In this document: positions 18,357 to 19,305 of the stretch, in pieces
Position numbering within the stretch: position 1 is the first letter of the stretch
How the letters are laid out: every line of letters begins with the position of its first letter
NCBI RefSeq assembly: GCF_000337195.1
Contig: NZ_AOID01000053.1
Coordinates: forward strand, 1-64,000
Direction: 5' to 3'
DNA from: Natrinema versiforme JCM 10478
GTDB lineage: Archaea; Halobacteriota; Halobacteria; Halobacteriales; Natrialbaceae
Length of the DNA: 64,000 nt
Program-made: the position numbers and the translations under genes
The notes under the pieces: generated by a model
What the model was told of the DNA's origin: nothing
Databases searched by the model: none
The model's input: only the letters and a program-made list of their open reading frames with translations

Positions 18357-18485
18357 ATGGCTCAGCCCTACGGCCGGTGTCAGCACTGCGGCGAGCGACT
18401 CTACGCCCACATCGAGGGCGGCTACCAGTGTGTGAACTGCGGACGGCGGTACACCGAGTCGGACCTCGAGACGCGGGCGGCGTAA
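18357..18485 (+). CDS. tiny zinc-ribbon protein
   Basis: A 42-aa protein with CQHCGERLYAHIEGGYQCVN followed by CG: cysteines 8, 11, 25 and 28 form a rubredoxin-like zinc ribbon. The TATTTAT at 18323-18329 lies about 30 nt upstream of the ATG at 18357. Such micro-zinc proteins are widespread in haloarchaea; a few have regulatory roles in Haloferax volcanii, most are unstudied. It lies just ahead of tRNA-Leu. Confidence 0.82.
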   Translation: MAQPYGRCQHCGERLYAHIEGGYQCVNCGRRYTESDLETRAA

Positions 18486-18775: not shown

Positions 18776-18897
18776 CTCGCAAACTTCTAAGGATGCTCGA
18801 ATCGATAGTGACTGGACCGCCGAGACAGTTCGTCTCCGTACTTCAGAGTTCGATTTCGCACTCGCCTAGATGGGTCTCTTTCAGCACGTTTGCAGTA

Positions 18898-18905
18898 GAT
18901 ATAAG
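18898..18905 (+). promoter_or_regulatory. TATA-like element of the candidate ncRNA
   Basis: GATATAAG at 18898-18905 is a good archaeal TATA match and lies about 22-28 nt before the base of the predicted RNA structure that begins at 18923. Confidence 0.5.
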
Positions 18906-18922
18906 TCCCAACAATTCAACTG

Positions 18923-19065
18923 GCAAACTGGAAGCCACACTCCAAGATCGGGGGCAGCACGCAAATGCCCCGGGTGAAGAGAGCACCCGAGACGTGGCTT
19001 CCAAATCCCATACCGGGATTCAGTTGCCATGTTTGCGTTACTTCTTCCGGGATATAAACATCCCG
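18923..19065 (+). ncRNA. candidate structured non-coding RNA
   Basis: A compact, multi-branched fold can be drawn by eye. P1: GCAAAC 18923-18928 with GTTTGC 19031-19036. P2: TGGAAGCCAC 18929-18938 with GTGGCTTCCA 18994-19003 (10 bp), enclosing P2a GGGGC/GCCCC (18951-18955, 18967-18971) and P2b GGGTG/CACCC (18972-18976, 18984-18988). P3: AATCCC/GGGATT (19004-19009, 19015-19020). P4: CGGGAT/ATCCCG (19048-19053, 19060-19065). P2 starts right after P1 and P3 right after P2, as in a real stacked junction. A TATA-like element lies upstream. No convincing reading frame covers it, and I do not recognise it as SRP RNA, RNase P RNA or a known riboswitch. It could also be the leader of the next small gene. 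Confidence 0.6.
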
Positions 19066-19131
19066 CACGACGGTCGAATCGCCCGACACGAGTCGTTTCG
19101 ATGGCCTGTTGTCGACCAAGAGGCGGTCGGG

Positions 19132-19305
19132 ATGCGTAGTCAGTCCGACGAGCGTGACGATACCGGCGACGGCACGTCACCGCTGCCCGACTGTCCGCGC
19201 TGTGGCGAGCCGGTCGCGTTCGTCACCGCGACCGGCCCCGTAACGGCCTCGGCCAGCCCCTGCGGCTGTTCGGTGCCGCCCGGGCTGGGACAGCGCGACG
19301 ACTGA
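19132..19305 (+). CDS. small cysteine-rich (zinc-finger-like) protein
   Basis: A 57-aa acidic protein with CPRCGEPVAFVTATGPVTAS leading to a second cysteine pair (ASPCGCSVPPG), likely a zinc ribbon. The start is the ATG at 19132; the ATG at 19101 is out of frame and stops at once. It begins 66 bp after the candidate ncRNA fold, which might be its 5' leader. A perfect 10-bp inverted repeat directly follows the stop. Confidence 0.7.
   Translation: MRSQSDERDDTGDGTSPLPDCPRCGEPVAFVTATGPVTASASPCGCSVPPGLGQRDD

Follow-up and report, generated by a model that had tools for sequence, protein, structure and literature searches.

A widespread class of haloarchaeal leader RNAs with a putative strand-exchange switch at the start codon

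We find that the RNA encoded at positions 18925-19031 of the window, a 64,000-nucleotide stretch of Natrinema versiforme JCM 10478 (contig NZ_AOID01000053.1), forms a structured 5' leader on a short mRNA and is no independent non-coding RNA, and that it belongs to a widespread haloarchaeal leader-RNA class. The class is apparently undescribed, as a literature search outside the subscription journals found no published description of it. Judging from the sequences, these leaders are riboswitch-like, ligand binding itself being hypothetical, and they probably form a new cis-regulatory class that works as a strand-exchange translational switch. The preliminary description of this locus had offered two options, an RNA or a structured leader for the gene at 19132; the second is right and the stand-alone RNA is not, with a micro-operon or start codons following the structure. 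We call it a leader because the same pair of ORFs follows it in Natrialbaceae and, elsewhere, its 3' end abuts start codons.

The predicted minimum free energy of 18923-19065 is −59 kcal/mol, which gives a z of −5.0 against 200 dinucleotide shuffles (mean −39.0, s.d. 4.0), none of which (0/200) reached the native energy, and all the nested and stacked stems named in the preliminary description are present in the predicted fold. On the plus strand, helix P2 pairs a 5' strand at 18930-18938 (GGAAGCCAC), supported by covariation (permutation z 12.6), with a 3' strand, P2', at 18994-19002 (GUGGCUUCC), which is able to pair with either of two partners. Within P2 lies a three-way junction core (18940-18991) formed by inner P2 (18940-18942/18989-18991), hairpin A (18951-18956/18966-18971), which has an unpaired AAA on its 3' side, and hairpin B (18972-18976/18984-18988), which has a near-invariant GUG/CAC. 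P3 (19004-19020, stem 19004-19009/19015-19020) is a variable hairpin in the loop region separating P2' from its alternative partner, and four of its five pairs have changes on both sides among the Natrialbaceae copies. The proposed closing stem P1 (18923-18928/19031-19036) was not borne out, as 54.7% of its cells are paired in homologues compared to 53.6% in shuffles, and its 5' strand lies no further downstream than the predicted start of transcription. In the whole window, a tRNA was the sole Rfam match at the gathering threshold, and sixteen divergent loci compared with Rfam 15 at E ≤ 1 matched no family; with the strong covariation described below, the claim of a structured RNA outside the known families is upheld. 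An H/ACA or C/D guide RNA was also considered, and was dropped once the leader position was clear, the window having no Rfam guide-RNA match.

The TATA-like element that had been noticed upstream is real and conserved. The box, ATATAAG (18899-18905), is part of a GCAGTAGATATAAGT block at 18892-18906 on the plus strand, which is conserved in alignments of ~33 Natrialbaceae copies and has a fixed spacing to P2. Relative to the model start, a TATA-like hexamer occurs at −29/−30 in 22 of 26 members from Natrialbaceae and in 35 of the 74 remaining members. From this position and the usual archaeal TATA-to-start spacing, we infer that the 5' strand of P2 forms the beginning of the RNA, the predicted transcription start region here being 18925-18930 (plus strand). 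If the RNA starts at P2, the competitors for P2' would be the extreme 5' end of the transcript and the start-codon region. At L145, L148, L156, L176 and other loci, the stretch from the TATA box to the predicted start contains palindromes, CCATAAGACACGTGTCTTATGG for example, and these are possibly operators for transcription factors.

When 18900-19140 was compared by BLAST with 100 relatives, the region turned up in 46 genomes, with several copies per genome and every strong match in Natrialbaceae; the present genome has five leader copies, one of them degenerate. The neighbouring tRNA-Leu, named in the preliminary description, is only the address of one orthologous locus (found beside 5 of 33 related loci), and a tRNA-associated element was rejected, with the tRNA being near orthologous loci only. 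In 32 Natrialbaceae copies, 90.9% of cells are paired, eight pairs show two-sided changes and none of 500 shuffles was as good, so that the compensatory changes suggested as a check on the structure are indeed present in relatives. A first covariance model gave weak single matches in other families, and reading these matches identified them as divergent members with quite different P2 sequences. A second covariance model, confined to the P2/A/B domain and applied at E ≤ 0.001 (the model E-values are rough), found the class in 193 of 391 sampled haloarchaeal genomes and in 66 of 86 genera, with up to 12 copies scored per genome and at least 16 in one genome when the scoring limit was raised. 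No match outside the order was found by covariance model in a phylum sample of 295 genomes. Thirty-five divergent members aligned with MAFFT contain 77 two-sided cells compared to 40 when shuffled. In an alignment of 100 members, which was fitted to the model and whose numbers lean towards it, 85.9% of cells are paired (34-51% in slid controls), 23 of the 25 pairs have two-sided changes and two-sided cells number 326 versus 122; the MAFFT alignment leads to the same conclusion. Covariation is strong in P2, A and B, the GUG/CAC of hairpin B is kept in almost all of the 100 members, and the AAA on the 3' side of hairpin A is also conserved. The 5' leader thus has a conserved structured domain such as riboswitches have.

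Some copies lie close together. Two are ~0.5 kb apart on the minus strand of locus L003 (1525-1661 and 2000-2137), and close tandem copies occur in other genomes too, for example around 1570915-1574231 of G048 C1. Three copies on the Natrinema sp. SYSU A 869 plasmid NZ_CP082248 (L228, L230 and L231) each lie in the same kind of small cassette, with a 264-bp gene downstream on the opposite strand and a 195-bp gene upstream, and the cassette has the look of a module that duplicates. At two plasmid loci of Natrinema (L208, L209) the leader has a gene for a cold-shock domain protein upstream; this gene is missing at the other loci inspected and was rejected as a regular neighbor.

In an oriented alignment of the Natrialbaceae copies, the promoter (AGTAGATATAAG), the leader and two ORFs make up one continuous conserved unit. 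The first ORF (19029-19139, plus strand) is unannotated and encodes a short, basic, arginine-rich (LPGYKRPARR) microprotein of 36 aa (MFALLLPGYKHPARRSNRPTRVVSMACCRPRGGRDA). It has an ATG and is open in 32/32 copies, compared to 4/32 and 0/32 for the other two frames of the interval, and its length across copies is 33 to 57 codons. The second ORF (19132-19305, plus strand) encodes a 57-aa zinc microprotein with CPRCG and PCGC knuckles, and between the window and its closest relative it has 5, 3 and 13 changes by codon position, mostly in the third. Its start overlaps the stop of the first ORF in 31/32 copies, in two frame relations, ATGA and ATGNNTAG, and because of this recurrent overlap the two genes appear to be translationally coupled. 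Neither microprotein has a Pfam or NCBIfam family above cut-off, and the inspected Natrinema and Halopiger plasmid records have no annotated gene beneath the match. Another small ORF with two CxxC knuckles (MAQPYGRCQHCGERLYAHIEGGYQCVNCGRRYTESDLETRAA) is found at 18357-18485, just upstream of tRNA-Leu, and has weak zinc-ribbon matches only.

The micro-operon also changes the reading of P4 (19048-19065, plus strand; CGGGAU-AUAAAC-AUCCCG, stem 19048-19053/19060-19065), which had been listed as an RNA stem. The hairpin is there, with 96.9% of cells paired across the Natrialbaceae copies, and it sits within the reading frame that starts at 19029. Codon shuffling gives a z of −1.06 for the Natrialbaceae copies and of +0.1 elsewhere, by which P4 is family-specific, and we rejected it as a feature of the whole class. 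A second TATA box in P4 serving the zinc gene was considered as well: ATATAAAC is sometimes ACATAAAC with the hairpin still pairing, and the upstream ORF spans the site. We therefore prefer to regard P4 as a hairpin/coding element.

Outside Natrialbaceae, the genes behind the leader are small and diverse, and include zinc-ribbon-like proteins, SWIM zinc fingers, PadR regulators, HNH proteins, secreted proteins and unknown ones. A CxxC or SWIM-like Cys motif is present in the first or second downstream ORF in 51 of 73 cases versus 3 of 66 window ORFs, a comparison whose p-value is overstated as members of the same family are not independent; most downstream products are small, Cys-rich and probably zinc-binding proteins. 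In Haladaptatus, 24 of the 77 SWIM loci searched carry the leader, on the sense strand and just upstream of the start, and these 24 include nearly all of the loci in which the match starts at residue 1 or 2. SWIM genes are highly multiplied in the Haladaptatus genomes (L234-L313), with up to 24 places on one plasmid, and many copies are N-terminally truncated and then have no leader. A number of the downstream proteins have matches in PHROG among families without an assigned function. Viral spread of the leader was rejected: viral contigs queried with the zinc microprotein and SWIM yielded no relatives, and the SWIM-like gene of a halovirus is overlapped by the gene before it, which leaves no space for a leader.

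The alternative partner of P2', anti-P2 (AGUUGCCAU; 19022-19030, plus strand), extends into the start codon. In the window copy, the anti-P2 helix consists of GCCAU/GUGGC and one flanking G-C across a UU/UU mismatch; it is imperfect, and P2 is favored. Elsewhere, the P2' strands GGUCUUCC, GGGUUCCC, GGUUGUCUC and GGCUUCC face GAAGACC-(A)AUG, GAAGAACCC-AUG, GACAACC-AUG and GAAGCC-AUG, respectively, and across such very different sequences P2' has two complementary partners, the 5' strand and the 8-9 nt in contact with the start codon. A first test of anti-P2, which searched a 52-nt window, proved too permissive, and a fixed-window test took its place. For 73 non-Natrialbaceae members, the complementarity of P2' to −11 to −1 of the AUG is 15.5 compared to 12.1 with permuted partners (z 10.5, 0/5000), and dual complementarity in 62 unique non-Natrialbaceae members has a z of 9.9. 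Permuted partners leave some relatedness, and slid windows with the same phylogeny show nothing: when the mRNA was scanned, complementarity peaked at AUG −8 to +1 (z 11.8) and its immediate neighbors, with no signal from +4 to +65. Since windows elsewhere have the same phylogeny, relatedness alone is insufficient to account for the anti-P2 signal. The Haladaptatus paralogues keep (G/A)AAGACC directly against the AUG, and their intervening loop is unalignable and free in sequence and length. A divergent subfamily with at least 11-12 copies in G227 (loci L100 and L107), a genome of another family, has GGGAAC as P2 and GGUAACCC as anti-P2 against the AUG.

The two helices are close in predicted energy. 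P2 is usually the more stable, the anti-P2 state lying a median 3.3 kcal/mol above it and within 5 in 71 of 98 members, as computed with thermodynamic parameters other than those for molar KCl. In several Natrialbaceae copies (L024, L032 and L025), the alternative fold with a paired AUG is itself the minimum free energy structure, and in many members anti-P2 stops just before the AUG and does not cover it. On sequence and energy evidence, then, a helix mutually exclusive with P2 is found where a riboswitch would have its expression platform.

We suggest the following working model. Transcription would start at P2, as the TATA box indicates, and the leader would fold into P2, the three-way junction and hairpins A and B. 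P2' could then exchange the 5' strand for the 8-9 nt at the start codon, which would place a hairpin next to the AUG or across it. Formation of P2 would leave the start region free and allow translation of the first ORF, and formation of anti-P2 would hinder initiation. Anti-P2 would need something to favor it, P2 being usually the stabler in prediction, and the balance might be set by a ligand, an ion, a protein or a condition acting on the P2/A/B junction or the 5' end. The controlled unit in the window would be the 36-aa arginine-rich microprotein and, if coupling holds, the overlapping zinc microprotein gene.

Several candidates can be considered for what would set such a switch. The leader could be a haloarchaeal riboswitch, possibly the first natural one in these organisms, that senses a metal ion, zinc being the obvious guess from the genes, or another small ligand, and that controls initiation by strand exchange between 5' end and start codon with no Shine-Dalgarno sequence involved; this is a tentative proposal that we consider doubtful. 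It is conceivable, if still on the unlikely side, that the leader responds to protein, with its own arginine-rich or zinc microprotein or another RNA-binding protein binding the junction and setting the switch in the manner of ribosomal leaders. The first microprotein is short and basic and the downstream products are mainly small and Cys-rich (51/73), but the downstream proteins (SWIM, PadR, HNH, zinc ribbons, unknown) are mutually unrelated and a single self-binding mode is unlikely for all of them. A common trans-acting protein is still a candidate, and a protein trigger is compatible with strand exchange. An RNA thermometer or salt sensor, in which temperature or ionic strength shifts two nearly equal folds with no specific ligand, would draw on the median gap of 3.3 kcal/mol and the near-equal states of most members, but a pure melting device would have no need of the conserved junction core (GUG/CAC, AAA), and we think this improbable.

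Two other explanations dispense with the leader altogether. An own promoter and a compact fold would suit an independent trans-acting small RNA. Such an RNA would be independent of the downstream ORF, but conserved ORFs begin at the 3' end of this structure, with the same ORF pair behind nearly all Natrialbaceae copies and a start codon at the 3' end elsewhere, making it very improbable. Many copies per genome, including plasmid copies, might suggest a MITE-like element or other dispersed repeat that has no regulatory role, which we find scarcely credible given that compensatory changes keep the pairing, the promoter-to-ORF and start-codon registers are kept, the downstream ORFs are open, the tRNA-Leu neighbor is retained in five other genomes, and P1, the candidate terminal repeat, has no conservation. 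The strand-exchange translational switch is the reading that we carry forward.

Few cis-regulatory RNAs are known or predicted in archaea (PMC7247131), and in Haloferax volcanii, where dRNA-seq found 72% of protein-coding transcripts to be leaderless, control by structured leaders was judged not typical of haloarchaea (PMC4983044). Hundreds of members in half of the sampled haloarchaeal genomes contradict this picture. The class offers a system in which Shine-Dalgarno-independent control of translation can be tested directly, and exposes a family of unannotated two-gene micro-operons. The product of the gene at 19132 resembles the small CPxCG zinc-finger proteins of haloarchaea, such as Brz in Halobacterium salinarum (PMC2253796), in its size and CPxCG-type knuckles, a likeness of motif, and it has no Pfam or NCBIfam family. 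Like the archaeal ribosomal-protein leaders (S15 in Halobacteria, eL15 and L4; PMC7247131), the present class is a structured cis-regulatory RNA found by covariation, but those leaders precede ribosomal protein genes whereas this one is followed by small Cys-rich, SWIM, PadR and unknown genes. As of PMC8241225, only one natural riboswitch had been determined experimentally in archaea, the fluoride riboswitch of Thermococcus kodakarensis. With translational riboswitches in general, the leader shares its 5' position, a conserved junction-type domain and mutually exclusive helices, of which one is located where translation begins. It differs from them in that the ligand is hypothetical and no Shine-Dalgarno sequence is masked: the pairing would abut or cover the AUG itself, and the competitor would be the transcript's own 5' terminal strand.
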